From the NCBI GenBank assembly GCA_023267515.1, contig JAHFNF010000011.1, forward strand, positions 1 through 16,019: a stretch of 16,019 bases of DNA. Reading direction: 5' to 3'. Under the pieces are notes generated by a model that did no database searches, was not told the DNA's origin, and saw only the letters and a list, made by a program, of their open reading frames with translations. Positions 1 to 14,993 of this stretch are shown here, one piece after another (within the stretch, counting starts at the first letter, position 1; each line of letters opens with the position of its first letter). A program made the position numbers and the translations under genes. The stretch is from Candidatus Nomurabacteria bacterium. Lineage in GTDB: Bacteria > Patescibacteriota > Minisyncoccia > Phycocordibacterales > UBA9973.

Positions 1-15
1 TTTAATAAAAAATAT

Positions 16-693
16 ATGGAAATAACAATAGAAGAAATCCAAAAAAAGTTTGATAGTCTGCCAGAGGAATTAAAATGGGCAATAATGGCGGCAGATGTGG
101 ATAGTAAAATTATTGAGATAGCGAAAAAAGAGGAGCTGAACAATGTGCAGATGGGGCAGCTGGCACTTGAAACCAATGTGGTGATGTTCGGCTTTTATCC
201 GCCGGAAAAATTTGAAGAATCCCTTAAAGGCAGTCTAGGCCTCCCAGATGAGAAGATAAAAGCTATCGCCAATGATGTGAATGAACTGATATTAAAAAAC
301 ATCCGAGAAAAATTAAAAACTGGAGCGCCGGTGGGCGAAGAAACCACCTCGGAGAAAGACGATAAAGAAATACTTAAAAGTGCCGGTATTGAAATAGCGG
401 AAGATAGCGTAATGCCGACAAAGATACCGATTCGGACTATCACTGAAAACCGCGAAGAGCTGCTCAAAGGGATGGAGCATCCAGAGCTCATTGCCGGAAA
501 GACCCCTCCGCCAATGATCCAAAGCTCAAAACTAGTCGGCTCTTTCCAAATACCAGCGACTAAGACAGAATATAAAATGGACAATATGACAAAAGGTGGG
601 GGCGCGCCAGCAGTGGCGACTCCGACAGTCAAAGATGGAGAAGGAGCTTTGGCGCCAAAAGCAGATCCATACCGGATGCCAATAGAGGAGTAG
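16..693 (+). CDS. Conserved helical protein of unknown function, first gene of the type IV secretion-like cluster
   Basis: This 225-residue protein has no recognised catalytic motif. Residues 1-105 are charged and predicted mostly helical, with no signal peptide or membrane segment, so a cytoplasmic location is likely. Residues 105-225 are low in complexity and rich in Pro, Gly, Ala and Thr, which suggests a disordered tail. It starts at an ATG with no Shine-Dalgarno sequence upstream. The start lies 15 bases from the window edge, so an upstream neighbour cannot be judged. The stop is 15 bases before the PrgI-family gene, which puts it in the same transcription unit. I recall similar N-terminal domains in Parcubacteria next to PrgI/VirB4 genes, but I cannot assign a function; a cytoplasmic accessory role in the secretion-like complex is inference from position only. 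Confidence 0.75.
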   Translation: MEITIEEIQKKFDSLPEELKWAIMAADVDSKIIEIAKKEELNNVQMGQLALETNVVMFGFYPPEKFEESLKGSLGLPDEKIKAIANDVNELILKNIREKLKTGAPVGEETTSEKDDKEILKSAGIEIAEDSVMPTKIPIRTITENREELLKGMEHPELIAGKTPPPMIQSSKLVGSFQIPATKTEYKMDNMTKGGGAPAVATPTVKDGEGALAPKADPYRMPIEE

Positions 694-708
694 ATTTAAG
701 AATAAAAT

Positions 709-1143
709 ATGCAATTTAAAGTACCACAATTTTTAGACATAGAAGACAAGATTTTCGGCCCTTTCACTTTCCGGCAATTTGCGTACCTCGCTGGTGGAGG
801 TGGCCTTTGTTTTGTCATATACAAAGCAATGCCCTTATATATAGGAATATTTATTATGCTGCCCGTACTGGGAATGTCTCTCGCTCTCACTTTTTATCGG
901 ATAAATAATAAACCCTTTATTTTTGTTCTTGAATCCGCTTTTAGATACGCTATTGCGGACAAATTGTATATCTGGAAGAGAAGGTTAAAAAAGCCTGGAA
1001 CCAAAAAAGAACAAGAAGAAGCGGCCGCTAAAAAACAGATTGCAATGGCTAGGACGCAGCGGCTCGGGACTAGTCGGTTGAAAGACTTGGCTTGGAGTTT
1101 GGATGTACTAGACTTAAAAAAAGAAAAGCAAAAAGCAATTTAA
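709..1143 (+). CDS. PrgI family membrane protein (type IV secretion-associated)
   Basis: This 144-residue protein fits the PrgI family, small inner-membrane proteins encoded just upstream of VirB4 in Gram-positive-type conjugation systems and equivalent in position to VirB3. The N-terminus (MQFKVPQFLDIEDKIFGPFT) is typical: a short cytoplasmic beta segment, then the 'GPFTFRQFAYLAGG' turn. Two adjacent hydrophobic segments follow at about residues 24-41 and 44-63. After them comes a conserved 'NKPF' region, an amphipathic segment and a Lys/Arg/Gln-rich cytoplasmic tail from about residue 90. The known family role is to partner and anchor the VirB4 ATPase at the membrane. The gene follows the 225-residue gene by 15 bases and precedes the VirB4-domain gene by 9 bases. 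An AGGAG at 686-690 is too far from the ATG (18 bases) to be a normal ribosome site. Confidence 0.85.
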   Translation: MQFKVPQFLDIEDKIFGPFTFRQFAYLAGGGGLCFVIYKAMPLYIGIFIMLPVLGMSLALTFYRINNKPFIFVLESAFRYAIADKLYIWKRRLKKPGTKKEQEEAAAKKQIAMARTQRLGTSRLKDLAWSLDVLDLKKEKQKAI

Positions 1144-1152
1144 AATAAATTT

Positions 1153-1800
1153 ATGGCCCTATCAGCAAAAGCAACTCAAGAGTTTGTCCCTATCAAGGAA
1201 GTCCGCGATGGTATCGTGATTTTAAAAGACGGCGGGCTAAGAGCGTTAGTCCTCGCGAGCTCTACAAATTTGTCCTTAAAATCTTCCGACGAACAGCGCG
1301 CGACAATTTTACAATTCCAATCATTCCTCAATACTTTGGACTTCCCAGTGCAAATAGTGGTGCAGTCCAGACGCTTGGATATCCGGCCATACCTACTACT
1401 TTTGGAGAACCGAATGAAAGTGCAGACAGAACCACTACTCAAAATACAGACTAGGGAATATATGGAATTCATCAGAAATTTTACTGAATCGGTAAATATT
1501 ATGACTAAGAACTTTTTTATCGTTGTGCCTTACACCCCGAAAAAGCTGACAGTAAGTGGCGGGGCTTTCAGCGGAATTTTTTCCAAGAAGACTGCTAATA
1601 TGGCGCGGGAAGCAGCCACAGCGGAGTTTGAAGAAAAGAGATCCCAGCTTGATCAGCGAGTGGGAGTGATAGAGCAAGGGCTCGCGCGCTGCGGTATCAA
1701 ATCAGTAGAGCTAGGCACGGAAGAAGTAGTAGAAGTTTATTATAAAGTATTCAACCCAGGGGAAGTGGAAGGAAAGATTGAGCTTGAAAAAGTCCAATAA
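1153..1800 (+). CDS. VirB4/TraC N-terminal-domain-like protein without an ATPase domain
   Basis: This 215-residue protein resembles the extreme N-terminal domain of TraC/VirB4 ATPases from PrgI-type systems. It has an opening segment 'FVPIKEVRDGIVILKDGG', a strand-rich middle with 'FQSFLNTLDFPVQIVVQSR' at about residues 55-74, and 'FFIVVPY' at about residue 122, followed by a charged coiled segment. There is no Walker motif and no membrane segment, so it is probably cytoplasmic and structural. It ends 5 bases before the VirB4-like ATPase gene. Its 215 residues plus the following 616 approach the length of a single full VirB4, so the two may be a split form of one ancestral protein. The reading frame is clean and both halves have proper start and stop codons, which argues against a sequencing frameshift. 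The ATG has no Shine-Dalgarno; a TAAAAT box lies 6 bases before it. Confidence 0.7.
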   Translation: MALSAKATQEFVPIKEVRDGIVILKDGGLRALVLASSTNLSLKSSDEQRATILQFQSFLNTLDFPVQIVVQSRRLDIRPYLLLLENRMKVQTEPLLKIQTREYMEFIRNFTESVNIMTKNFFIVVPYTPKKLTVSGGAFSGIFSKKTANMAREAATAEFEEKRSQLDQRVGVIEQGLARCGIKSVELGTEEVVEVYYKVFNPGEVEGKIELEKVQ

Positions 1801-1805
1801 ATTAT

Positions 1806-3656
1806 ATGTCAATCTTAGATAAAATTTTAGGCAAGAAAAAAGCAAGCGGGGCGGAAAAAAACGTCTCCGTGTCTGCTTTGCCGGTCCTCCCACAGGAAAT
1901 ATACGAATCGGCCACAATGGAGTTGCAAGACATCATTGCTCCTTCTGCCTTGAAAATTGAACCGAAAGCAATAAACCTAGGTGATAAAATCGCCCGTACG
2001 TTTTTTGTTATTTCTTACCCAAGATATTTGACGGACAACTGGTTCTCTCCGATTATAAACTTGGATAAAATTTTTGACGTAGCTATATTTATCCATCCGA
2101 TAGATACTTCACTAGCGCTACGCCAATTTCAAAAGAAAGTGGCGGAAGTACAAAGCCAAATAAACGCTCGTGAGTCCAAGGGGATGGTGCGTGACCCGAT
2201 GCTAGACACCGCCAATCAAGATTTAGAGAGCCTCCGAGATTCCTTGATGCAGGCCCAAGAAAAAATGTTTGACGTCGGGCTTTATATCACTATATATGCG
2301 GACAGTGATTTAGAGTTATTCAAAATAGAAAGTGAAATAAAATCAATCCTGGAATCAAAGCTGATTTACTTGAAGCCGGCACTTTTCCAGCAAGACGATG
2401 GATTTAAAAGTGTGGTACCTATCGGCAACGACCTACTAAACGTGCACCAAAAATTAAACTCCGAGCCTCTTTCTTCCATTTTTCCTTTCGTTTCTTTTGA
2501 CTTAACTTCTGATAAAGGTATTTTATATGGATTAAATAGACATAATTCTAGCCTTGTAATATTTGACCGATTTTCGTTGGAAAATTACAACTCGGTTACC
2601 TTTGCCAAATCTGGCTCGGGAAAATCTTACTGCACCAAACTGGAAATTTTGCGTAGCTTGATGTTTGATACAGATGTGATCGTCATAGACCCGGAAAGGG
2701 AATACGAATTCCTAGCGGAAGCAGTCGGGGGAAGATATTTCAACATTTCGCTTTCATCGAACCACCACATCAACCCTTTTGACTTGCCGATACCGCGTGA
2801 AGACGAAACCGCCGCAGACGTCTTGCGTTCAAACATAATAAATCTAGTCGGTCTTTTCCGATTAATGTTGGGCGGTCTTACCCCAGAAGAAGACTCATTA
2901 GTGGACCGCGCTATATCGGAAACATACGCCATCAAAGACATCACCCCAGACTCTGACTTTGCGAACGTTGAGCCTCCTCTTTTATCAGACTTTGAAATGG
3001 TCCTCTCTGGTATGGAAGGGTCAGACTCGGTAGTGCAAAGACTGGTAAAGTATACTCGGGGTTCCTGGTCTACATTTTTAAACAAGCCATCCAATGTGGA
3101 TATAAATAAAAAATTCATCGTTTTTTCAGTGCGAGATATGGAAGACGAATTAAAGCCGGTAGCAATGTACATCGTTACACACTATATATGGAACGCAGTC
3201 AGGAAAAATCTCCGTAAGCGCCTCTTGGTGGTGGACGAGGCTTGGTGGATGATGAAATCCGAAGACACCGCTTCCTTCCTATACTCCATCGCCAAACGCG
3301 GCAGAAAATACTATTTAGGACTTGCCACCATCACCCAGGACGCCGCCGACTTTATGAAGTCTCCCTATGGCGTACCGATCGTGACCAACTCTTCAATCCA
3401 AATCTTGTTGAAACAATCTCCTTCAACGATAGATATTTTGCAAAAAACTTTCAACCTGACAGACGAGGAAAAATATCTGCTTTTGGAATCTGGGGTAGGA
3501 GAAGGAATTTTCTTTGCCGGGACAAAGCACGTTGCCATCAAGGTCATCAGTTCTTATACCGAAGATCAGATCATCACCTCAGACCCATCCCAACTTCTAT
3601 CTATCAAAAAAGCAAAACAAGACTTGGAGGAAGCCGAGGGGGTAGAGAAAAGATGA
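1806..3656 (+). CDS. VirB4/TraC-like type IV secretion ATPase
   Basis: This 616-residue P-loop ATPase would power a type IV secretion or pilus-assembly machine at the inner membrane. The Walker A motif is AKSGSGKS at residues 267-274, with Ala where Gly is usual at the first position. 'VIVIDPEREYEFLAE' follows, a typical VirB4 segment after Walker A. Walker B is LLVVDEAWWMM, with D477-E478. The 'SIAKRGRKYYLGLATITQD' segment after it is a further family motif. Residues 1-250 match the VirB4 middle domain ('FFVISYPRYLTDNWF') and include a probable coiled coil at about 110-150. There is no membrane segment, so membrane association would come from the PrgI partner. It is 5 bases downstream of the separate N-domain gene. 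No relaxase or VirD4 coupling protein is seen nearby, so DNA transfer should not be assumed. Confidence 0.92.
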   Translation: MSILDKILGKKKASGAEKNVSVSALPVLPQEIYESATMELQDIIAPSALKIEPKAINLGDKIARTFFVISYPRYLTDNWFSPIINLDKIFDVAIFIHPIDTSLALRQFQKKVAEVQSQINARESKGMVRDPMLDTANQDLESLRDSLMQAQEKMFDVGLYITIYADSDLELFKIESEIKSILESKLIYLKPALFQQDDGFKSVVPIGNDLLNVHQKLNSEPLSSIFPFVSFDLTSDKGILYGLNRHNSSLVIFDRFSLENYNSVTFAKSGSGKSYCTKLEILRSLMFDTDVIVIDPEREYEFLAEAVGGRYFNISLSSNHHINPFDLPIPREDETAADVLRSNIINLVGLFRLMLGGLTPEEDSLVDRAISETYAIKDITPDSDFANVEPPLLSDFEMVLSGMEGSDSVVQRLVKYTRGSWSTFLNKPSNVDINKKFIVFSVRDMEDELKPVAMYIVTHYIWNAVRKNLRKRLLVVDEAWWMMKSEDTASFLYSIAKRGRKYYLGLATITQDAADFMKSPYGVPIVTNSSIQILLKQSPSTIDILQKTFNLTDEEKYLLLESGVGEGIFFAGTKHVAIKVISSYTEDQIITSDPSQLLSIKKAKQDLEEAEGVEKR

Positions 3657-3662
3657 TATAAT
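3654..3662 (+). promoter_or_regulatory. Extended -10 promoter element, possible leaderless start of the Ig-like gene
   Basis: The sequence TGATATAAT is a perfect extended -10 (TGn-TATAAT). It overlaps the TGA stop of the VirB4-like gene and lies 7 bases before the ATG at 3670. That spacing would place the RNA start at or next to the start codon. No good -35 is seen at the usual distance, which extended -10 promoters can tolerate. It could give the last three genes of the cluster their own transcript. Sequence pattern only. Confidence 0.45.
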
Positions 3663-3669
3663 AAGAAAA

Positions 3670-4650
3670 ATGAAGAAAATATATTTAATTTTAATTTTGG
3701 TAGCAACGCTCGCTCTTTACGCGTATCCAGTAGAAGCTCAGTTAAAAACCTCAGACGTGACCTTAAATATCACTCCGCTCTTCCCGACTCCGAATCAGAC
3801 CGTTAGCGCCAACTTGGAAAGTTTTGCGATAGATTTAGATAAGACAAATATAGCCTGGCTGTTAAATAGCCAAGAAAAAATCTCTGGGGTGGGGAAAAAA
3901 GCTTTTTCATTCAACGTCGGAGGGACCGGGGTATCACTATCCATAGAAGCGCGGATTAGCACCGTTACCGGTCAAAATATAATCAAAAGAGCGGTAATTA
4001 CGCCAGCTGATATTGATATGATGTGGGAGGCATTTGATTCTTATGCCCCGCCTTTTTACCGCGGAAAAACAATGGTTTCTACTGAGGGAAGTTTTAAAGT
4101 AGTAGCAATGCCGAACCTTATAAACTCGTTCGGCAAGGTAAACCCTGCTAGCCTTTCTTACTCTTGGGTAAAAGACGAAACTCCACAGCCGGATCTTTCT
4201 GGCTGGGGGAAAAATTATTTTGTTTTTAAAAACAGCTCGTTAGATAACGAGAACACGATAAGTGTAGCGGTGTCCGACGCCTTTGGCGGAGCGAACACCC
4301 AAGGTGAGATCACTTTACAGACAGGGACTCCCGAAATAATATTTTACGAAAACAACCCTTTGCTTGGCGTAAATTATGACAACGCTGTCCGAGACGGATT
4401 CTTAATAAATAAAACTGGATCAACCCTAGTTGCCGCTCCATACTTTTTTTCACCAAATGATCTGAGCTCCAAGGACTTGTCTTTTACTTGGTCACTAAAC
4501 GGAGAGGGAATAGCAACACCAGTTCCTAAAAATATTCTTTCCATTAAGCCAGCCGAGGGGCAGGGAGGATCAGCAGTTATAAAAATCGCCATTAACAACG
4601 CTCAGACTCTTTTCCAGTCATTGGAGAAAGAACTAAATGTCAGCTTTTAA
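3670..4650 (+). CDS. Secreted or membrane-anchored Ig-like domain protein of the secretion-like cluster
   Basis: This 326-residue protein starts with a clear signal peptide or anchor: Lys-Lys, then a hydrophobic stretch at about residues 4-20 and a possible cleavage after 'VEA'. The rest is strand-rich with no membrane segment. It resembles two or three tandem Ig-like/PKD-like domains: 'SLSYSWVKDE' at about residue 157 and 'DLSFTWSLNGEG' at about residue 275 look like equivalent strands of repeated domains. I recognise no catalytic motif. It lies 13 bases after the VirB4-like gene and overlaps the next gene by 14 bases, so translation of the two is probably coupled. An extracytoplasmic structural or adhesive part of the type IV-like machine is the likely role, but this is inference. 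Confidence 0.75.
   Translation: MKKIYLILILVATLALYAYPVEAQLKTSDVTLNITPLFPTPNQTVSANLESFAIDLDKTNIAWLLNSQEKISGVGKKAFSFNVGGTGVSLSIEARISTVTGQNIIKRAVITPADIDMMWEAFDSYAPPFYRGKTMVSTEGSFKVVAMPNLINSFGKVNPASLSYSWVKDETPQPDLSGWGKNYFVFKNSSLDNENTISVAVSDAFGGANTQGEITLQTGTPEIIFYENNPLLGVNYDNAVRDGFLINKTGSTLVAAPYFFSPNDLSSKDLSFTWSLNGEGIATPVPKNILSIKPAEGQGGSAVIKIAINNAQTLFQSLEKELNVSF
4623..4626 (+). promoter_or_regulatory. Possible Shine-Dalgarno site for the VirB2-M15 gene
   Basis: GGAG lies 10 bases upstream of the ATG at 4637, inside the 3' end of the Ig-like gene. It is one of the few Shine-Dalgarno-like sites before a start in this window, and it belongs to an overlapping gene that cannot use a leaderless start. 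The match is short. Confidence 0.35.
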
Positions 4651-6112
4651 AAATAAAACTAAAAAGGCGGTTCTCTATTCTCTATTATTCTTTTTCTTAT
4701 TTTTTTCTCTGTCTGTAAATATAAGACGTGTAGAGGCGGCAGATTTGAGCACTTTATTTACCACAACCATAACCCAAGTAGGCCAGAATCAGGATAAGGC
4801 GATTGTAAAGATAAAAATAGAAACACAAGATTTAGCAAATTATGACGCCGTAGAAGACAATGCTACCAATCCAAACAGCGGTTTCTACGTTAAATTCGGT
4901 GTGGGGGACACTTACTGGACAGGATTTAGGTACGTCACCAGCAATATTCACACTGATCAAAAGATAAATGAATTTTTGGTGGTATTTGATAAATCAAGCG
5001 ATGCGGACGTAGAAAATCTGACAGTCTGGTCAAGCCAAGAACCTACCCCAAAGATACGTGTGCAGGTAGCAGTGGAGGAAGATTTTAGCACTACCACCTA
5101 CGACATTAGCCCCGCCTTTGTTGCTCATTTTGACCCGAGCCCGGTTGTGGTGACAAACAACAACTCTACCAACACAGGCGACTGGCAATATTATACAAAC
5201 CCAGACCACACCACGCTCAGCAGTAGTCGTTATCCGACAGAAGAAAAATGTAGGTCTTCTTTGCCTCCTGGTCCTGGATATGGACCGTGTGTACAAACCT
5301 ACACTCTCTTGCAACCAATACCCAATGGGACTACCGACTTGAAAACTTTTGCCGCCGGCGAACCGGGGGCTTTCGCCAGATATTTTAATATAATGTTCAA
5401 GCTCTTTATTGGTATTTGCGCAGTTTTGGCAATGGTGATGATAGTCTGGGGAGGAATAGAATATATAACGAGCGAACTTATCTCTGGAAAAGAAGCCGGA
5501 AAAGAAAGGGTCTTAAACGCAGTCTTTGGTCTCTTGCTTGCCCTCGGCGCTTTTGCTCTGCTTAATACAATAAACCCCCAACTCCTAGATATAGGACTAA
5601 ACAACCTACCCCAAGCAATAGTAAGATCAGAAGACGAACCAGAAACCGGTATCACATCTTCCACTATCAACCTGATAGAAAAAAGCAACGGCAACACAGT
5701 GGTTTTATCCAACTGTGATACTTCTAAATTAGTCACAGCAACTGTGTTCGGACATAGTGTGCAGGTATATAAAGGGGTAAAGCCGAGCCTAGAAAGAATA
5801 AATACCGCTTGGTTGGCTCACGGGGGCGCAAGTGGGTATGAAGTCAAAACAATTTTCGGATATAATTGCCGAAGAGTAAAAAACCAACCAAATTCTTGGT
5901 CTGCACACGCCTTTGGAGTGGCTTTGGATATAAATCCTCAACAAAACCCTTATGGAACAACCCAAGTAACAGATATGCCTTCCTGGTTCAGACAGTTATT
6001 TATTACCGAAGGTTGGGGTTGGGGAGGGAATTGGTCAAACCCTAAAGATGCGATGCATTTTAGTAAGTACCCATCAAGCGAAGGGGGCGATAAAAAAGTA
6101 GAAACAATTTAA
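4637..6112 (+). CDS. VirB2/TrbC-like membrane module fused to an M15-family zinc peptidase
   Basis: This 491-residue protein has four parts. A signal peptide covers residues 1-35 ('VEA|AD' cleavage possible). A strand-rich extracytoplasmic region follows to about residue 245; it has a Cys pair, C205 and C218, just before the 'YTLLQPIPNG' segment. Two membrane helices at about 251-275 and 293-313 are joined by a Lys/Glu-rich loop and end in 'LLNTINPQLL', as in VirB2/TrbC pilin-like proteins of Parcubacteria. The C-terminal domain (about 360-485) has the M15 signatures SAHAFGVALDIN (zinc ligands H424, D431), the 'EGWGWGGNW' segment and DAMHF (D471 acid, H474 ligand). That pattern fits the M15C/VanY-like group, which cleaves peptidoglycan stem peptides. 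C360 and C411 could form a disulphide. With a cleaved signal peptide and two helices, the peptidase sits outside the membrane, where it could open the wall for the machine. Peptide specificity cannot be told from sequence. Confidence 0.88.
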   Translation: MSAFKNKTKKAVLYSLLFFFLFFSLSVNIRRVEAADLSTLFTTTITQVGQNQDKAIVKIKIETQDLANYDAVEDNATNPNSGFYVKFGVGDTYWTGFRYVTSNIHTDQKINEFLVVFDKSSDADVENLTVWSSQEPTPKIRVQVAVEEDFSTTTYDISPAFVAHFDPSPVVVTNNNSTNTGDWQYYTNPDHTTLSSSRYPTEEKCRSSLPPGPGYGPCVQTYTLLQPIPNGTTDLKTFAAGEPGAFARYFNIMFKLFIGICAVLAMVMIVWGGIEYITSELISGKEAGKERVLNAVFGLLLALGAFALLNTINPQLLDIGLNNLPQAIVRSEDEPETGITSSTINLIEKSNGNTVVLSNCDTSKLVTATVFGHSVQVYKGVKPSLERINTAWLAHGGASGYEVKTIFGYNCRRVKNQPNSWSAHAFGVALDINPQQNPYGTTQVTDMPSWFRQLFITEGWGWGGNWSNPKDAMHFSKYPSSEGGDKKVETI

Positions 6113-6115
6113 TTT

Positions 6116-7450
6116 ATGTCAAAACAAAAACTTATAATCTTAATAATTTTCCTTGTCGGTCTCACTGCTTTATTTTTTGCATACTTATACTTCTTCCCGG
6201 GGTCAAAAGCGGCACAAGTGGTGCAAAAAAACGCGCCGAATTTCTTTCCATTCGGCAGTAACGTAACAAAAACAACTCCTGGAACCACGGAAAATAATAA
6301 TTCTGGATTAGAAATACCAAACAACACGATTTCACCACAGAGTCAGTTGAAATTAAAAAAAGTTTCAAGTATGCCTATCGCCGGATTTGGTATTTTTAAC
6401 AAAGAAGTTTATAAAGACGTTTCTCCGATCACTCCTATCACTGCTATTGGAGAAGAAGTGACAAACACTACCCCTCCTCCATCAGCTCCGACCACAGAAT
6501 TCATCCCGACATTGCGATATGCAGACAAGGCAACGGGAAATATTTATCAAGCTCGCGCTGACAAATTAGATGAGCGAAAACTGAGCAGTACTATAATCCC
6601 GCAAATTCATGATGGAATTTTTGCCAAGGAAAGTACCGCGGTGGTACTGCGTTATTTAAAGGAAGATGGCAGGACCATTGCTTCCTTTTTAGGAGCTCTG
6701 CCAGCAGATACATTGGGCGCGGACACCTCTGAGGGAGCAGAACTTAAAGGTATTTTCTTACCGGACAATACTACGGAGGTGAGTGTCTCGCCAGACGACT
6801 CTAAAATATTTTACTTATATAACACAAATAATGTATCCTTCGGTGTAGTTTCTGGCACAGCCGGAGAGGCTAGATCACAGGTACTCATTTCACCCTTTAC
6901 TGAATGGCTAGTAGAGTGGCCAAACTTTAAAATGATTACACTTAATACAAAACCAGCCTCCGGTATTCCAGGATATATGTACGCTCTTGACCCGGAGAAA
7001 AAAGATCTCAATAAAGTACTGGGGGGTATCAATGGCCTCACCACCAACACAAGTCCAACGGGTAAAATGGTACTTTACAGCAGTTCAAGCGACAACTCCA
7101 TCTCTCTTGGTATGTATGATATCAGCAACGGGAACTCAATTCCCCTTGGCATAAAAACCTTGCCGGAAAAATGTACCTGGACTAAAGCAGGGGATTCTTT
7201 ATACTGCGCAGTTCCAAAATTCCTTGATAGCATGAGCTACCCTGACTCTTGGTACAAAGGGCTCACCTCTTTCTCTGATGAGATTTGGAAAGTAGATGCA
7301 GAAAGCGGCAGTGCAGTTAAAATAGCGGATCCGGTAGAAGTATTAAATGAAGATATGGATGCCACAAAGCTCACTCTGGATAGCGACGAAAACTACTTAT
7401 TTTTTATAAACAAAAAAGACTCTTACTTGTGGGAACTTCGTCTAAGATAG
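6116..7450 (+). CDS. Membrane-anchored beta-propeller-like protein, last gene of the cluster
   Basis: This 444-residue protein has one N-terminal membrane anchor at about residues 5-27, then a Pro/Thr/Asn-rich linker to about residue 130. The C-terminal two thirds are strand-rich with recurring blade-like elements: 'SVSPDDSKIFYLY', 'TSPTGKMVLYSSSSD' and 'TLDSDENYLFFINKKD'. These recall TolB/WD40-like propellers. No enzyme motif is visible. The start is 3 bases after the stop of the VirB2-M15 gene, so it belongs to the same unit, and the domain would lie outside the cytoplasmic membrane. A scaffold or binding role next to the peptidase is plausible but unproven. The last 9 bases overlap the 3' end of the convergent jag gene. 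I recall similar proteins after VirB2-like genes in other Parcubacteria. Confidence 0.78.
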   Translation: MSKQKLIILIIFLVGLTALFFAYLYFFPGSKAAQVVQKNAPNFFPFGSNVTKTTPGTTENNNSGLEIPNNTISPQSQLKLKKVSSMPIAGFGIFNKEVYKDVSPITPITAIGEEVTNTTPPPSAPTTEFIPTLRYADKATGNIYQARADKLDERKLSSTIIPQIHDGIFAKESTAVVLRYLKEDGRTIASFLGALPADTLGADTSEGAELKGIFLPDNTTEVSVSPDDSKIFYLYNTNNVSFGVVSGTAGEARSQVLISPFTEWLVEWPNFKMITLNTKPASGIPGYMYALDPEKKDLNKVLGGINGLTTNTSPTGKMVLYSSSSDNSISLGMYDISNGNSIPLGIKTLPEKCTWTKAGDSLYCAVPKFLDSMSYPDSWYKGLTSFSDEIWKVDAESGSAVKIADPVEVLNEDMDATKLTLDSDENYLFFINKKDSYLWELRLR

Positions 7451-7915
7451 CTCGCCGACGTATTTAATGACTACTCGCCTAGTCGGGCCAAAGCCGGTTG
7501 ATTCGGTCTTTAAGTCGGTAGCAGCGGAAAGAAATTCGTGGATTATCCGGCGATCAAATGCGGACATTGGGTCCACTTCAATACTTGATTTGAAATAACG
7601 CGCTCTTTCAGCCATCATATACGCTATGGCTTTTACATTTTCTACTTTTTTCTTTTGAAACCCGCCAATATCCACCAGAACCGATGGACCTTCTTCTTTT
7701 AGAGGTTCCTTCTTCTCTAAAATTCTCCTGACAAGGTGATTTAGCGCCGCCAGAGCGTCTCCTTCCCGGCCTAAAAATAAATGCGGTTCAGAAACTTCAA
7801 CCGAGTACCACAGTGTTTTAGACCCATCATCCTGTGAAATTTGAATATTCTTAACAGAAATATCCATTTTTTGGATTAGCTCCTTTATTAAATTTTGCAA
7901 TTCCACTGTGTCCAT
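7442..7915 (-). CDS. jag: Jag/KhpB-like RNA-binding protein (KH-II plus R3H)
   Basis: This 157-residue cytoplasmic protein has the Jag/KhpB core. A KH type II domain covers about residues 20-90 with the GxxG loop GREG at 49-52. An R3H domain covers about 90-155, with the RxxxH signature at R122-H126 in 'MSAFDRRIIHEFLS'. The C-terminal 'STGFGPTRRVVIK' is also typical. The N-terminal Jag_N domain is absent, so this is a short form. In Firmicutes the family binds RNA and affects cell elongation and division; that role is assumed here, not shown. It is encoded 10 bases downstream of yidC, the usual partner order, and is the last gene of the rpmH block. No Shine-Dalgarno is seen. Its stop overlaps the convergent propeller-like gene. 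Confidence 0.93.
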   Translation of the reverse strand: MDTVELQNLIKELIQKMDISVKNIQISQDDGSKTLWYSVEVSEPHLFLGREGDALAALNHLVRRILEKKEPLKEEGPSVLVDIGGFQKKKVENVKAIAYMMAERARYFKSSIEVDPMSAFDRRIIHEFLSAATDLKTESTGFGPTRRVVIKYVGELS

Positions 7916-7925
7916 ATTTTTAAAA

Positions 7926-8651
7926 TTATTTCGTGACCAAAGCTAGTCTTTTCTTTTTATTAGAATAAATCTGTTGACCCACGGCAAATAAATTGCTCAC
8001 AATCCAATATAAAGCGACCGCTCCGGAAATAGAATAGGCAAAGAAAGCTATAAGGAACGGAAACACATACTTCATCTGCATTTGCATACTCTTCCCAAAA
8101 CTTTCAGCAAAGTTGCCTTTCCCTCCCACAGACGGTGCGCTCTTCGGCATATAATGCGCTTGCAAAAACTGGGAAACACCAGCCAGTACTGCCAGCACCA
8201 TACTCTTCCCGCTTAAATCCACTAAACCAAGAAAAATATTATTTACATGGAGAGGTGCGTGAATAAAAGAATATAAAACACCTTCATCAAACTTTATGCC
8301 TTTATAAAACACGTAGTAGAGAGCAAAAATTATCGGTATTTGGATAAAAATCAAAAGACAGCCAGAGAAAGGATTGGTCTTGTATTTTTTATAAAGGTCA
8401 AAAGTCTGCTTGGCTTGTTCTTCTTTTGAGGCACCGCCTGCTTTTATTTTGGCAATTTCAGGCTCTAAAAGCTTCATCTTCGCTTGGCTTTCAATGGAAC
8501 GTTGAGAAAGGGGGAAGAGGGCGGTTTTTACAAGGAGAGTGAGGATGATAACAGCTACTCCCATATCTCCCCCAGGAATGATTGAAACTAAAAAAGCTAA
8601 AACATTCACAAACGGCTTATATAGAAGGGCATTCCATAAATTATGTAACAT
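7926..8651 (-). CDS. yidC: Membrane protein insertase YidC/Oxa1
   Basis: This 241-residue protein is a short YidC/Oxa1-type insertase that places proteins in the cytoplasmic membrane, alone or with SecYEG. It lacks the large periplasmic domain of Proteobacterial YidC. The core is clear: 'ILTLLVKTALFPLSQRS' in the first core helix, a cytoplasmic charged hairpin ('QAKMKLLEPEIAKIKAG'), 'TNPFSGCLLIFIQIPIIFALYYVFY', and further helices to about residue 220, with a basic C-terminus. The groove position occupied by Arg in E. coli (R366) is Lys, K42. The start follows yidD by 39 bases and has a promoter-like TAGAAT 6 bases upstream. No lipoprotein Cys is present near the N-terminus, and residues 1-25 are moderately hydrophobic. 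Confidence 0.95.
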   Translation of the reverse strand: MLHNLWNALLYKPFVNVLAFLVSIIPGGDMGVAVIILTLLVKTALFPLSQRSIESQAKMKLLEPEIAKIKAGGASKEEQAKQTFDLYKKYKTNPFSGCLLIFIQIPIIFALYYVFYKGIKFDEGVLYSFIHAPLHVNNIFLGLVDLSGKSMVLAVLAGVSQFLQAHYMPKSAPSVGGKGNFAESFGKSMQMQMKYVFPFLIAFFAYSISGAVALYWIVSNLFAVGQQIYSNKKKRLALVTK

Positions 8652-8657
8652 TCATCC

Positions 8658-8685
8658 ATTCTATACGAAAAAACCTAAAAATCAA
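8658..8685 (-). promoter_or_regulatory. Candidate promoter for yidC-jag with start-codon-proximal -10
   Basis: Read on the minus strand, TTGATT (8680-8685) and TAGAAT (8658-8663) are separated by 16 bases, and the yidC ATG begins 6 bases after the -10. Transcription would start at or within a base of the ATG. The elements match four of six and five of six of the sigma-70 consensus. It would allow yidC-jag to be expressed apart from rpmH-rnpA-yidD. The GGATGA between box and ATG could instead act as a weak ribosome site. Confidence 0.4.
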
Positions 8686-8690
8686 AGCTC

Positions 8691-8906
8691 TTATTTTACT
8701 GGATCTATCCTATTTTTCTGCCAGGGGTGACAACGAAGTATCCGACGAAAGCCGAGGTATATACCTTTAAGCCCGCCATATTTTTCTATCGCTTCTTTTG
8801 TGTACTCTGAGCAGGTAGGATAAAAAACACAGCTCGGATTTTTAAATCCTGAAATCTGTTTTTGATAAAAACTAATGCAATTTACCAAGAATGATTTGAA
8901 TTTCAT
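8691..8906 (-). CDS. yidD: Membrane protein insertion efficiency factor YidD
   Basis: This 71-residue protein matches the YidD family in length and motifs. 'FYQKQISGF' is followed by 'CVFYPTCSEYTKEAIEKYG', 'GIYLGFRRILRCHPW' and a short tail. The family's conserved Cys residues and the RCHPW motif are all present. YidD is a small amphipathic membrane-associated protein that assists YidC-dependent insertion. The gene overlaps the 3' end of rnpA by 35 bases in another frame, a common arrangement, which supports this start and suggests coupled translation. It precedes yidC by 39 bases. Confidence 0.95.
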   Translation of the reverse strand: MKFKSFLVNCISFYQKQISGFKNPSCVFYPTCSEYTKEAIEKYGGLKGIYLGFRRILRCHPWQKNRIDPVK

Positions 8907-9234
8907 TTTCTAAATTTAGAATTGGGTTATATTGTTTTGTTTTTTCTCCGCCAAACATCGCTCCGCTTTTTTTACCAAAAATAAAAGCACCGACAAATCC
9001 AGGAGGGAACTTATTAAAATATTTTCGCACTGCTGCGTAGCCCCGCCGGCGAAGTTGGTTTCGGACGACTGCTTTTTTTGATACAGTTTTTGGTGTAATA
9101 AAAGAAATTTGGGCGGGGGCAGGACTTTTAGATGAAATAAACTTCAAAGAAATATTAGCAGAATTAATAAAGACCCCATTTTTAAAAATGTTTTCTATTG
9201 TTTTGCGGTCTGCTCTATTTTTTTTAGCGAGCAT
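8872..9234 (-). CDS. rnpA: Ribonuclease P protein component
   Basis: This 120-residue basic protein is RnpA, which binds the RNase P RNA and helps mature tRNA 5' ends. The family signature (RNR motif) is 'KKAVVRNQLRRRGYAAVRKYF' in shortened form: 'VVRNQLRRRGYAAVR' at about residues 56-70. It follows the central cleft strand 'AQISFITPKTVSKK'. The N-terminus 'MLAKKNRADRKTIENIFKNG' matches the usual RnpA opening. The residues after the RNR core (GYAAVR) depart from the common 'RRxRE' form. The gene starts 9 bases after rpmH and overlaps yidD by 35 bases. No Shine-Dalgarno is seen. Confidence 0.95.
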   Translation of the reverse strand: MLAKKNRADRKTIENIFKNGVFINSANISLKFISSKSPAPAQISFITPKTVSKKAVVRNQLRRRGYAAVRKYFNKFPPGFVGAFIFGKKSGAMFGGEKTKQYNPILNLENEIQIILGKLH

Positions 9235-9243
9235 TTGCTTGCG

Positions 9244-9378
9244 TTAGACTGAAAGCTTACGCCTTCCTTTTTGCATCCTTCTTTTTAGGACCCTTCGGCC
9301 GGTTGAGGATTTTGATCTAACAAGGAAACCGTGGGTTTTTGCTCTCTTCCTCTTTTTAGGTTGGTATGTTTGTGACAT
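9244..9378 (-). CDS. rpmH: 50S ribosomal protein bL34
   Basis: Reading the minus strand from the ATG at 9378 gives a 44-residue, highly basic protein. It opens with [18 protein letters not shown], continues with '[20 protein letters not shown]' and ends in 'RRKLSV'. This is the bL34 pattern: 'TxQPxxRKRxxxHGFxxRxxTxxGRxVLxxRRxKGRxxL'. It is a component of the large ribosomal subunit. The gene heads the rpmH-rnpA-yidD-yidC-jag block and points away from dnaA, as at many bacterial origins. A good promoter lies directly upstream, with the -10 only 6 bases from the ATG. Confidence 0.96.
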
Positions 9379-9384
9379 AAGTTG

Positions 9385-9412
9385 AGTATAGCGTATTTTA
9401 GCTTTAAGTCAA
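9385..9412 (-). promoter_or_regulatory. Promoter of rpmH, probably leaderless
   Basis: On the minus strand, TTGACT (9407-9412) and TATACT (9385-9390) lie 16 bases apart, each matching five of six consensus bases. The rpmH ATG begins 6 bases after the -10, so the transcript should begin at or next to the start codon. This is the best -35/-10 pair in the window and would drive the whole rpmH block. Confidence 0.65.
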
Positions 9413-9437
9413 AATATGAGTCGCGTAGGTGTTTAAA

Positions 9438-9457
9438 TTATCCACAGTTTATCAACA
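9438..9457 (+). promoter_or_regulatory. Pair of DnaA boxes
   Basis: TTATCCACA at 9438-9446 equals the DnaA box consensus. TTATCAACA at 9449-9457 differs at one base. They are in direct orientation with an 11-base period, which suits cooperative DnaA binding on one helix face. Confidence 0.8.
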
Positions 9458-9477
9458 GAGTTAATAAGTTTTTGTAA

Positions 9478-9506
9478 TTAGCATATATGGTGAGAACGGT
9501 TATAAT
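9478..9506 (+). promoter_or_regulatory. dnaA promoter with start-codon-proximal -10
   Basis: TATAAT (9501-9506) is a perfect -10, and the dnaA ATG starts 7 bases later at 9514. A weak -35, TTAGCA (9478-9483), is 17 bases upstream. There is no room for a Shine-Dalgarno leader, so a leaderless dnaA mRNA is likely. It lies 20 bases downstream of the DnaA box pair. Confidence 0.55.
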
Positions 9507-9513
9507 GTAGCCT

Positions 9514-10869
9514 ATGGTAGATGCAAAAGAGCTTTGGAAAAGCTGTCTAAATGAAATAGAAAACGAGGTATCAAAAGCAAATTTCAGCACTTGGTTCCGA
9601 AATACCTCTATTTTAAAGGAAGAGGGAGGGGTTATTTACATAGGGGTCCCAAACGAGTTTGTGCGTGATTGGCTCCAAAATAAGTACCATAAACTAATCA
9701 CTAAAACGGTGGCGGGCTTTTTTGACACAATGAGGGCAGTAGAGTATGCGATCACTAAGATAGAAGGGCCGCAAAAAGACTTACCCATACAAAACGCCGA
9801 GTCCTTTATGAATAACGAGCTCCCCTTGAAAGACTTATATATAAACAAGGAAGACAACCTAAACCCACGTTATAAATTTGATTCTTTTATTGTCGGAGCG
9901 TTCAATGAGCTAGCATATGCGGCTGCCCAAGCGATAATAAATAAGCCGGGGGCTAGCTACAATCCATTTTTTGTTTATGGTGGTACTGGTTTGGGTAAAA
10001 CCCACCTAATACAGGCAATAGGAAACTCAATTAAAGAAAAACATCTTGATAAAAAAGTGCATTATATAACTTTAGAGAAATTTGCTACTGATTTGGTCAA
10101 CTCTTTCACCGCTGGAAATAATAAAACTAACGCTTTTAAAGAAAAATACAGGAAATACGACTTGTTAATAATAGATGATATTCAATTTATTGGCAAAATG
10201 GAAAAGACCCAAGAAGAGCTCTTCCATACCTTTAATACCTTTTACGAAAACAATAAACAAATTGTATTTTCTTCTGACAAACACCCGAACTTTATCCCTG
10301 GCCTGGAAGACAGATTAAAATCCAGATTTGCGGCGGGCATGATCGTGGATATTTCAGAACCAGAGTACGAATCACGCTTAGCTATACTAAAAGTTAAATC
10401 AAAAGAGCTTGGAGTGACTTTAAGTGAGGAACTTCTCCGTTATATGGCGGAATCCATCCAAGGGAATATACGAGAGCTAGAAGGAGGGCTCAACACAATT
10501 ATTTGCCAATATAGGCTTAAAAATAAGGCTATATCAGTGGGGGAGGCAAAGACACTGCTAAAAAATAGCATCAAACCAAAGAAGAATGTGGCAATAAAAG
10601 AGGTGGTAAAAACAGTCGCGGATTTTTACAACCTTGGGGAAATGGAAATATATGAAAAAACCAGAAGAAAAGAGATTGTGCGCGCTAGACAGGTGGTGAT
10701 GTATATACTACGAGAGGACTTTAATGTTTCATACCCGCTTATAGGGCAAAAATTGGGGGGAAAAGACCACACCACAGTAATACACTCACACCTTAAAATA
10801 AAAACTGACTTAAAAAACGATTCATCGTTAGTACAAGATTTAGAACAGATAAGGATAATGTTTAAATGA
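9514..10869 (+). CDS. dnaA: Chromosomal replication initiator protein DnaA
   Basis: This 451-residue protein is full-length DnaA. Domain I (about residues 1-80) opens 'LWKSCLNEIENEVSKANFSTWF'-like and mediates self- and partner contacts. A short domain II linker runs to about 110. Domain III is an AAA+ ATPase starting near 'NPRYKFDSFIVGAFN', with Walker A GGTGLGKT at 156-163, Walker B LLIIDDIQ with D221-D222, and an arginine-containing 'GLEDRLKSRF' segment. Domain IV ends with the DNA-binding signature DHTTVIH at 418-424. DnaA-ATP binds DnaA boxes and opens oriC. The gene lies between two probable origin half-sites and upstream of dnaN. The start was chosen because domain I begins directly at this ATG and the promoter -10 is 7 bases before it. 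Domain II is short for the family. Confidence 0.98.
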   Translation: MVDAKELWKSCLNEIENEVSKANFSTWFRNTSILKEEGGVIYIGVPNEFVRDWLQNKYHKLITKTVAGFFDTMRAVEYAITKIEGPQKDLPIQNAESFMNNELPLKDLYINKEDNLNPRYKFDSFIVGAFNELAYAAAQAIINKPGASYNPFFVYGGTGLGKTHLIQAIGNSIKEKHLDKKVHYITLEKFATDLVNSFTAGNNKTNAFKEKYRKYDLLIIDDIQFIGKMEKTQEELFHTFNTFYENNKQIVFSSDKHPNFIPGLEDRLKSRFAAGMIVDISEPEYESRLAILKVKSKELGVTLSEELLRYMAESIQGNIRELEGGLNTIICQYRLKNKAISVGEAKTLLKNSIKPKKNVAIKEVVKTVADFYNLGEMEIYEKTRRKEIVRARQVVMYILREDFNVSYPLIGQKLGGKDHTTVIHSHLKIKTDLKNDSSLVQDLEQIRIMFK

Positions 10870-11076
10870 TTGTTGAAAGTATGTTTATATCTATTTAATA
10901 AAAATGTATATAAAATTAAAATAATATTAAATAAAAAAAACAGGAGATAAATAAATAAAAAGTTGTTAGCTATAAATTAAAAAAATAAAGTAAATAAAAA
11001 CGTTTATTAATAAAGTAAAAAATAGTTTTCCACTTATTAACACCCTTAATAGTAATAATAAATTTAATATAAATAT
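10870..11076. other. Downstream half of probable bipartite oriC (dnaA-dnaN intergenic, AT-rich unwinding region)
   Basis: This 207-base gap is extremely AT-rich and holds no gene. Near its right end lie two degenerate DnaA boxes, TTTTCCACT (11026-11034) and TTATTAACA (11034-11042), sharing one base, then CCC (11043-11045), then a phased triplet run TAA-TAG-TAA-TAA-TAA (11047-11061), then AT-only DNA up to the dnaN ATG. This order of box, GC patch, TAG/TAA trios and AT-rich DNA matches the described basal unwinding arrangement. Further left is a repeated ATAAAGTAAA (10985-10994, 11010-11019) and a small inverted repeat AATAAA/TTTATT (10993-11008). A weak dnaN -10, TAATAT, ends 6 bases before the ATG. 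Confidence 0.65.
11047..11061 (+). repeat. Phased TAA/TAG triplets resembling DnaA-trios
   Basis: Five consecutive in-phase triplets (TAA, TAG, TAA, TAA, TAA) follow a degenerate DnaA box by four bases, with CCC between. DnaA-trios are described as 5'-TAG-like repeats read by DnaA on single-stranded DNA during opening. The match is by pattern and location; AT-rich DNA can produce TAA runs by chance. Confidence 0.5.
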
Positions 11077-12174
11077 ATGAAGCTAGAATGTGATTTAGGA
11101 AAAATTAAAAATGCAGTCAGTTTTACTGAAAAAATAACCAGTAAAAATATGACCCTCCCAGTTTTAAATTCAATACTTCTAACCGCCTCTGGTAAATCAC
11201 TTAAATTACGATCCACCAACCTTAGTATTGGTGTAGAAATAGAAATACCCTCAAAAATTGAAAAAGATGGGGTATTAGCTGTCTCTGGGGCTGTTTTGTA
11301 TGGGGTTTTTTCTAATATAAACCAAAATGAAAACATAATATTAAAAGAAGATAATGGGAATTTAATGGTTCAAACTAAAAAAAGTAAAGTTAAAATAAAA
11401 TGCCAACCATATGATGATTTTCCAACAATACCAAATGTATCAGGAAGTAATTTTATTATAAACTCCGAAAAGTTTATAGGGGGTATTAAATCTGTTTATT
11501 TTAGCGCTTCAGTATCTGATATTAAACCAGAAATTTCAAGTGTTTATATATATTCAAACGATGATGGGCTAGTGTTTGTTTCCACTGATTCTTTTCGTTT
11601 AGCGGAGAAGAAAATAAAAATGAATAATACCCTTGAAGTCAGTGGTATTTTAATACCATTTAAAAATATTCCAGAAATTATAAGGATTTTTAGTGAAACA
11701 AAAGGAGATATTAAAGTATGTTTTAATAAAAACCAAATTTCATTATCAGCTGACGGCGTTTACTTTACTTCTAGGGTTATAGATGGGGTTTTCCCTGATT
11801 ATAAACAAATTATTCCAAAAGAAAATAAGACTGAAGCCGTAGTGCTAAAACAAGATTTATTAAATGCTTTAAAGTTATCAAATATTTTCTCCGATAAATT
11901 TAACCAGTTGAACCTAAAAGTTTTACCAAAAGAAAAAATGTTTGAAATTTCCTCCCAAAACTCTAATGTTGGGGAAAACAATACCAATCTTGATGCCGCG
12001 CTCTCTGGGGAGAATGTGGAACTTTCTTTTAATTATAAATATTTTTTAGATTGTTTTGGGTCAATCAATTCAGATAGTATTGTTTTAAAACTAAACCAAT
12101 CAAATCGCCCTATGGTTATATCTGGGGTTTCAGACCAGTCTTTTACTTACTTAATAATGCCGATGAACAGGTAA
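11077..12174 (+). CDS. dnaN: DNA polymerase III beta subunit (sliding clamp)
   Basis: This 365-residue protein has the three-domain clamp architecture and normal length (about 365-380). The N-terminus 'MKLECDLGKIKNAVSFTEKI' leads to 'LPVLNSILLTASGKSLKLRSTNLSIGVEIEIP', the hallmark of domain 1. 'FRLAEKKIKM' and 'ILIPFKNIPEII' mark domain 2, 'GVFPDYKQIIPKE' the domain 2-3 junction, and the C-terminus ends 'YLIMPMNR', close to the usual 'MPMRL'. The clamp encircles DNA and tethers the polymerase and other replication proteins. The gene follows dnaA across the AT-rich origin half-site, and a small DciA-like gene begins one base after its stop. Its codons are visibly more AT-rich than those of dnaA or pbp. 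Confidence 0.97.
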   Translation: MKLECDLGKIKNAVSFTEKITSKNMTLPVLNSILLTASGKSLKLRSTNLSIGVEIEIPSKIEKDGVLAVSGAVLYGVFSNINQNENIILKEDNGNLMVQTKKSKVKIKCQPYDDFPTIPNVSGSNFIINSEKFIGGIKSVYFSASVSDIKPEISSVYIYSNDDGLVFVSTDSFRLAEKKIKMNNTLEVSGILIPFKNIPEIIRIFSETKGDIKVCFNKNQISLSADGVYFTSRVIDGVFPDYKQIIPKENKTEAVVLKQDLLNALKLSNIFSDKFNQLNLKVLPKEKMFEISSQNSNVGENNTNLDAALSGENVELSFNYKYFLDCFGSINSDSIVLKLNQSNRPMVISGVSDQSFTYLIMPMNR

Positions 12175-12175
12175 A

Positions 12176-12433
12176 ATGATTGAAATAAAAGATCTTCTAC
12201 TCCGGTTTAGTCATTTATTACACTCAGAGGAAGTTAAGAAGGAGTCCATAAGAAACATTATTTCTGAAACTATTGGAATACAAATACCCCTCAAAGACAT
12301 AACAATAAAAAATAATACTGTATTTTTAAATATAAAACCTGTCTATAAAAATAAAATATTTATAAAAAAAGAGCAAATTCTTTCAAAAATAGAAGAAACC
12401 CTTGGTAAAAAAGCGCCAAGTGATTTGCGTTAG
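12176..12433 (+). CDS. Small DUF721/DciA-like protein, possible helicase loader
   Basis: This 85-residue protein starts one base after the dnaN stop, with an AGG five bases before its ATG. The N-terminal 45 residues are helical ('LLLRFSHLLHSEEVKKESIR'). The C-terminal half reads 'DITIKNNTVFLNIKPVYKN', then 'KEQILSKIEETLGKKAPSDLR'. That matches the alternating strand-strand-helix ending of DUF721/DciA proteins, in which a hydrophobic 'tvfl.i' strand is followed by a helix and 'lG...v.di'. DciA interacts with and loads the DnaB helicase in bacteria lacking DnaC/DnaI. The place next to dnaA-dnaN supports a replication role. It is shorter than typical DciA and the match is by pattern only; a generic KH-like RNA-binding protein is the alternative. 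Its TAG overlaps the convergent pbp stop by four bases. Confidence 0.6.
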   Translation: MIEIKDLLLRFSHLLHSEEVKKESIRNIISETIGIQIPLKDITIKNNTVFLNIKPVYKNKIFIKKEQILSKIEETLGKKAPSDLR

Positions 12434-14946: not shown

Positions 14947-14952
14947 CCTTTA

Positions 14953-14961
14953 TTTATAGCA
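14953..14961 (-). promoter_or_regulatory. Extended -10 of the pbp promoter
   Basis: On the minus strand TGC-TATAAA is an extended -10 with TATAAA at 14953-14958. It lies 6 bases before the pbp ATG, so the transcript may begin at or next to the start codon. AAAGG directly abuts the ATG, which is too close for a normal Shine-Dalgarno. The -35 area would overlap the tyrS -10. Confidence 0.45.
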
Positions 14962-14968
14962 TAAAACG

Positions 14969-14977
14969 TGCTAGAAT
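14969..14977 (+). promoter_or_regulatory. Extended -10 of the tyrS promoter
   Basis: TGC-TAGAAT is an extended -10 with five of six -10 matches. A start about 7 bases downstream would give a leader of about ten bases with no Shine-Dalgarno before the tyrS ATG at 14994. It lies only 10 bases from the pbp extended -10, so the two divergent promoters share DNA. An in-frame upstream ATG at 14976 overlaps this box and is therefore less likely to be the start. Confidence 0.4.
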
Positions 14978-14993
14978 GATATCCAATATATTT

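Follow-up and report, generated by a model that had tools for sequence, protein, structure and literature searches.

In a 16,019-nucleotide stretch of DNA from a Candidatus Nomurabacteria bacterium (assembly GCA_023267515.1, contig JAHFNF010000011.1, positions 1 to 16,019; hereafter the window), a single gene joins a pilin-like membrane module of the VirB2/T4SS_pilin type to an M15 peptidase. The fusion, which an earlier note on this DNA had proposed, is real: both parts are matched by profiles above their cut-offs. Nor is it a chance event, as a pilin module followed by a long tail occurs in all 51 family genomes in which the region could be read. Comparison of these sequences identifies the tail as an exchangeable cassette, often of a wall-cutting family, on a conserved VirB2-like scaffold between conserved flanks. 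Our reading, to which we give a probability of about 60%, is that the protein would be a membrane-tethered wall opener of the Patescibacterial type IV secretion system (T4SS), standing in place of VirB1 and carrying an exchangeable enzyme end. A wall cutter fused to a pilin would explain the missing VirB1 in this group and offer a starting point for studying wall opening by such cells.

The fusion protein

From the N to the C terminus the protein consists of a predicted signal peptide, a variable and presumably extracytoplasmic region, a VirB2-like two-helix module and the M15 peptidase (Table 1). The T4SS_pilin profile (PF18895) matches residues 253-309 marginally, with 27.0 bits against a cut-off of 26.6 (29.7 bits in the whole-genome search), and Peptidase_M15_4 (PF13539) matches residues 418-476 with 58.9 bits against 25. 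Hydropathy peaks at residues 8-30 (the signal peptide), 245-282 and 290-317. In the AlphaFold2 model, helices at 245-278 and 282-312 lie in blocks with a predicted local distance difference test (pLDDT) score of 81-94, and the M15 domain (341-491) scores mostly 91-98, with one block at 73. Because most of residues 27-215 score below 50, there is no trustworthy model of the N-terminal part, whose length differs among relatives. The cysteines are at 205, 218, 261, 360 and 411. Hydropathy, loop charge and the model together predict a signal peptide followed by a hairpin with both ends outside, in keeping with the signal peptide and the outside-facing peptidase put forward in the earlier note.

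The complete M15 residues that the note had listed (H424, D431, D471 and H474) are at those positions and are invariant in 48 aligned M15-fused sequences; by analogy with M15 we take H424, D431 and H474 to be the zinc ligands and D471 the catalytic acid. Profile, active-site residues and fold agree on M15 membership, VIA-align finding M15 folds for the window model, and a Foldseek search of the same model against the PDB returned nothing at E ≤ 0.001. The best profile matches are the L-alanyl-D-glutamate endopeptidases Ply500 and LysB4, so the M15 version would be expected to cut the stem peptide. These two are endolysins without membrane helices; they share the M15 domain and its active-site residues with the fusion protein, which differs in its predicted signal peptide and two membrane helices.

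Plain Patescibacterial pilins, as described in PMC12102498 and PMC10633639, share the predicted signal peptide, the two hydrophobic helices, the PF18895 family and a gene beside virB4 and PrgI. They measure about 130 aa, in contrast to about 490 aa with the C-terminal enzyme domain; at 491 aa, the fusion protein also lies outside the size of a VirB2 pilin (about 100-150 aa). VirB2-sized proteins ending shortly past the second helix fill the same slot in other Paceibacteria genomes, and identity between these plain short pilins and the window module reaches 41%. The genome carrying the window (644 kb, 76 contigs) itself has short pilins of 128, 114 and 126 aa on two other contigs. Thus, the fusion looks like a pilin gene to which an enzyme has been added, in a cell that retains ordinary separate VirB2-like pilins as well, which the earlier note had not foreseen. 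PF18895 matched 71 of 78 open reading frames (ORFs) of a class survey at E ≤ 0.01, several relatives being under the curated cut-off. The TrbC/VIRB2 profile (PF04956) gave no match to the window protein up to E = 1 and stayed below cut-off in the relatives scanned; it is present among the precomputed domains of three of 120 listed relatives (P0047, P0054, P0058).

Exchange of the tail between sister loci

The family census covered 60 genomes. A module search at E ≤ 1e-10 gave 45 and a VirB4 search reached 55; tails were readable in 51, namely the 45 together with G358, G392, G401, G395 and, at contig starts, G374 and G389. The other nine were unreadable, six being cut by contig ends and three having no virB4 match. 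A long C-terminal tail was present in 51/51, the shortest measuring 161 aa among 43 ORFs of 42 loci (L203-L244). For 44 of the 51, the stretch fetched with the fusion also contains virB4, which bears out the repeated linkage to VirB4 expected in the earlier note, and the other seven were placed by the conserved next gene.

Clustered at E < 1e-6 over 60 residues, the 51 tails form 13 sequence clusters. An initial single-linkage clustering was rejected because shared linkers and weak links joined M15, NlpC and SLT tails. In all, 29 tails belong to clusters matching the curated hydrolase families M15_4, VanY, NlpC/P60, SLT or SLT_2, a count by cluster rather than per member, since matches above cut-off were scored on cluster representatives. 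NlpC/P60 tails are the most numerous (11/51), followed by SLT (7, in two clusters), VanY (5), SLT_2 (3) and M15_4 (3). Among the rest are cluster 1, with a TGGTE...HWH pattern (9), cluster 9 (4), cluster 5 (3), clusters 3 and 10 (2 each), cluster 12 (1) and one YkuD-like tail (17.0 bits, cut-off 23.4). PF13539 itself occurs in 10 of the 60 family genomes; in the seven inspected it lies three times in the fusion frame and four times in fetched frames without a pilin module. A second fusion in G360, with Amidase_2, is outside the count of 51.

NCBIfam and PHROGs gave no assignment for three of the tail clusters lacking a curated match. For one of them, the largest cluster without such a match, the identity rests on an H...D...HxH motif of the kind found in metallopeptidases of the LAS group, because searches with its model gave only helical-hairpin look-alikes (VIA-align) or nothing against the PDB at E ≤ 0.001 (Foldseek). 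In a PDB profile search Sonic hedgehog reached only E 0.99, after an unrelated chain with 0.16, and comparison with the M15 alignment by hhalign gave no match. The best PDB matches of the L220/P0044 cluster were lysozymes at non-significant values (0.075 and weaker), and the L218/P0046 cluster had no PDB match.

Exchange is most evident in close relatives. A protein search gave 219 matches among the 7994 candidates scored, and the best 120 of these include the same kind of scaffold with M15, VanY, NlpC/P60, SLT_2 or YkuD tails by precomputed domains. Tails of different clusters follow scaffolds that are, over their last 220 aa, 99.5% (P0062/P0064), 97.7% (P0039/P0078), 96.4% (P0044/P0045) and 94.5% (P0003/P0052) identical. 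Among pairs at 90-99% scaffold identity, four share a tail cluster and 12 do not. These proteins were selected for their resemblance to the window, so the rate is not unbiased; both pairs at 100% arise from a single protein that was counted two times. Between the congeners G377 and G365 (loci L208/L209) the DNA is 83% identical as far as the first 14 nt of the tail, and 85% identical again from about the stop codon. The non-aligning stretch between is 580 and 505 nt, one tail being M15 and the other belonging to a cluster without a curated match. All nine locus pairs tested had at most 16 nt aligned inside the first member's tail. Flanks aligned at both tail ends in six, lying no more than about 16 nt away in five of these and as far as 101 nt away at one end in the sixth. 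In L220/L223, L205/L207 and window/L218 a close flank was missing at one end or both, for the window at the downstream end.

A VirB4 tree was built from 40 loci, with L203 and L230 covering under half of the columns, and has good support on 14 of its 37 inner branches. On it, the 13 clusters require at least 27 tail changes, compared with 30.0 (s.d. 1.3) for shuffled labels, and 14 of 300 shuffles reached 27 or fewer. With four coarse groups the count is 17 against 18.1 (s.d. 1.6), 99 of 300 shuffles being at or below it, a weaker count because the groups lump clusters without a curated match by motif. Six tail clusters occur within the clade to which the window belongs (9 rows, support 100/99). 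This weak phylogenetic signal indicates that exchange is frequent. Long tails throughout, 13 clusters, colinear flanks and at least 27 changes argue together for a scaffold with an exchangeable cassette. In 34/43 the distance from the tail to the next conserved gene, whether gap or overlap, is at most about 35 nt. No orphan cassettes were found in the family stretches among ORFs of at least 60 aa at E ≤ 1e-6. Outside the family, a further ORF at L255 (order level) matches cluster 1, and the L129 tail has a match in an ORF at L099 (class level).

The survey was also taken to the class and the phylum. VirB4 was found at E ≤ 1e-40 in 123 of 133 class genomes; the window and 100 of the other 122 loci were taken, the 22 left out being mostly lower-scoring, short or with an insertion, and 89 of the 100 fetched were usable. 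A pilin ORF lies within 4.5 kb downstream of virB4 on the same strand in 76 of these 89. Tails can be recognised less often in the class: among those of at least 40 aa from 78 class ORFs, the window included, matches at E ≤ 0.01 were SLT (6), M23 (3) and single cases of others. The pilin module is rarer outside the class, 34 of 193 phylum genomes having it at E ≤ 1e-8 with the class's own included. Of six fusions scanned from other classes, one has an Amidase_2 match that exceeds the cut-off, another an M15 match that narrowly misses it (25.2 against 27), and four are without an enzyme match.

A proposed wall opener and its alternatives

In the mechanism that we propose, the pilin-like module would anchor the protein in the membrane with the tail outside, where the tail would open a wall for the T4SS, an M15 tail by cutting the stem peptide. 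The proposal rests on the operon, the pilin module, the predicted orientation and the hydrolase domains. Scaffold and flanking genes are retained in sister species with different tails, of which several are apparently other hydrolases. The wall enzymes of T4SSs (PMC12102498) include VirB1, TraG and PrgK. Their presumed task is likewise local peptidoglycan opening, but they are separate lytic transglycosylases or two-domain proteins, whereas the present cutter is joined to a pilin-like module and varies in class. PMC12102498, a survey of these systems, reports numerous VirB2-like genes in the vicinity of virB4 and finds VirB1 generally missing, which was taken to mean that VirB1 is not needed; for Ca. 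S. epibionticum it cites separate genes for a peptidase and a lysozyme, both essential, downstream of virB4. PMC11665869, in a passage on Saccharibacteria, calls the role of the system in these epibionts completely unknown, although the one species tested cannot do without it. We found no description of a pilin-hydrolase fusion in the open-access main text searched, including passages of PMC12102498, PMC10633639, PMC12857230, PMC11665869 and PMC10936435.

Several observations weigh against the wall-opener reading. The pilin match of the window protein is marginal, and structure searches with the helices listed no VirB2 chain, a short hairpin being hard to rank. The positive-inside signal is moderate, as the loop has more K+R than both flanks in 78 of 120 relatives and not in 42. 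The ordinary pilins of the same genome could form a pilus without the fusion protein. In the family, clusters for which no curated hydrolase match exceeds the cut-off account for 22 of the 51 tails, and neither PDB profile searches nor hhalign gave three of these clusters a firm identity. In the class, tails reach 90 aa in only 44 of 76 pilin genes and are under 40 aa in 14, many being Cys-rich or without a match. The downstream flank of the window aligns with that of its nearest pair, L218, only from about 1.35 kb on. The earlier note's overall interpretation, a tethered wall-opening subunit with an M15 peptidase, is supported in part, by its pilin-like and M15 profiles, predicted topology and VirB4 linkage, but M15 proves to be one of many tails (3/51).

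As to whose wall would be opened, we lean slightly to that of a host over that of the producing cell, since sister species differ in their cutter although little difference is expected in their own walls. Frequent change favours variable outside targets, and near-neutral replacement of equivalent cutters is also possible. Tentatively, and with the odds against it in this full form, we suggest that a minor pilin subunit among ordinary VirB2-like pilins, mounted by VirB4, might carry a wall cutter that pierces the host wall at the contact site, the cutter being swapped as hosts change. If swapping is host-driven, cutter class should follow host wall chemistry and not the cell's own phylogeny. 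Alternatively, the tail may act as a VirB1 in cis that opens the producer's own peptidoglycan for the T4SS, with cassettes replaced almost neutrally. Canonical systems need such an enzyme. The Mur ligase matches in two frames of the genome and a penicillin-binding-protein-like ORF at 12430-14946 (named by eye) indicate that the cell should make a wall, and no immunity-like gene sits beside the cassette, where the next conserved gene follows closely. We nevertheless regard this as rather unlikely, since tail turnover is nearly decoupled from the VirB4 tree, more than a constant target seems to need.

A membrane-anchored housekeeping hydrolase with no tie to secretion, merely sitting in a highly expressed operon, would fit the position near dnaA/dnaN, a site proposed for high expression in PMC12102498. 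We consider it improbable, as the anchor is specifically pilin-like, tail-less pilins occupy the same slot elsewhere, the pilin gene repeatedly follows virB4 across the class, and a change of enzyme class between congeners is not expected of such a protein. The constant scaffold with variable C-terminal domains resembles evolved VgrG/Hcp/PAAR of type VI secretion and the C-termini of contact-dependent growth inhibition (CDI), structural secretion components with an exchangeable enzymatic end, and would suit a toxin against competitors with a cognate immunity protein. The machine here is another one, however, and the same next gene, conserved whatever the tail (36/36) and usually too close to leave room for an immunity gene, makes a toxin-immunity arrangement unlikely. 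With orphan cassettes also absent from the family stretches, we hold the toxin explanation to be highly improbable, although immunity might be encoded elsewhere. Assembly chimeras or gene-calling artefacts might be suspected, as almost every relative with a title is metagenome-assembled and one record seems to be mistitled, but independent genomes have both flanks colinear, with breaks where the module ends and near the stop codon, and the 48 aligned M15-fused proteins keep their invariant residues; the chance of this is negligible.

The locus and further observations

Seven plus-strand ORFs run from 16 to 7450 (an unnamed protein, PrgI, two VirB4 ORFs, a conserved protein, the fusion and another conserved protein), separated in order by gaps of 15, 9, 5 and 13 nt, a 14-nt overlap and 3 nt. 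PrgI beside a CD1110-type VirB4 is the arrangement of an MPF-FATA type T4SS. The two conserved proteins are probably further parts of the same device, and the downstream one comes after the cassette regardless of tail class. A dnaA-like ORF (named by eye) begins at 9514, after the operon. The only virB4 match of the genome is on this contig.

Table 1. Features of the fusion gene and its operon in the window (all on the + strand).
Feature	Position	Basis
Fusion gene, 491 aa, ATG start	4637..6112	Pfam matches and AlphaFold2 model
Predicted signal peptide, residues 1-35 (...VEA/ADLS; cleavage site by eye)	4637..4741	Hydropathy 2.13 at 11-29; modelled helix 7-26
Variable N-terminal region, residues 36-220, predicted extracytoplasmic, C205 and C218	4742..5296	Low-confidence beta strands
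VirB2/T4SS_pilin-like helix hairpin, residues 245-312, K/R-bearing loop	5369..5572	PF18895, model, identity to plain pilins
Exchangeable tail cassette, pilin-module end to last codon	5597..6109	Start by pilin hidden Markov model; non-alignable between sister loci
M15 peptidase domain, residues 341-491	5657..6109	Pfam, model, nearest L-alanyl-D-glutamate endopeptidases
H424	5906..5908	Invariant in 48 M15-fused sequences, window included
D431	5927..5929	As H424
D471	6047..6049	As H424
H474	6056..6058	As H424
PrgI (VirB3-like)	709..1143	PF12666, 37.8 bits, cut-off 27
VirB4 N-terminal half, separate ORF	1153..1800	NF045975, 3.2e-09, 35.1 bits; whole-length cut-off of 590 far above
VirB4 ATPase half, CD1110 family	1806..3656	NF045971, 374.5 bits, cut-off 325
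Conserved operon protein, signal-peptide-like start by eye	3670..4650	No Pfam/NCBIfam match; 35/36 usable family loci
Conserved downstream protein, hydrophobic start by eye	6116..7450	No Pfam/NCBIfam match; 36/36 usable family loci

The window's enzyme is not a separate lytic transglycosylase of the VirB1 kind, being M15 and fused. A lone SLT-type protein of 170 aa with a hydrophobic start lies elsewhere (3023-3535 of L338, on the genome's contig C19). By eye, the remaining ORFs of that contig resemble phage or foreign genes, so that it may be a mobile element or have been binned in error. The short VirB2-like pilins of the genome form arrays at 261-1013 of L339 and 8019-10004 of L340 (contigs C23 and C20), one of them preceded by a long repeat-like N-terminal region of 442 aa. 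In the class loci L097, L111 and L120, three to four tailed pilin genes stand in tandem downstream of virB4 with differing tails, M23 being above cut-off in L111 and L120 and a cellulase-like match below cut-off in L097. Domain-wise annotation labels such proteins pilin, M15 metallopeptidase, NlpC/P60 or L,D-transpeptidase, which should be taken as a warning. The record JAMPXW010000001.1 (L298), titled Burkholderiales bacterium, bears a Nomurabacteria-type locus, so its title looks wrong.

In the window VirB4 comes as two ORFs, the N-terminal one of 215 aa and the ATPase one of 616 aa. Since the N-terminal piece recurs on 88 of the 89 usable class stretches, with an ATPase ORF that mostly measures near 600 aa, the split looks ancestral rather than a frameshift. 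In the class genomes G016, G031, G081 and G088 the ATPase match is broken near residues 272-276, within the Walker A motif (GSGKS at 270), by an insertion that adds several hundred residues to a single long frame, with a stop noted inside that of G031; this insertion looks intein-like.
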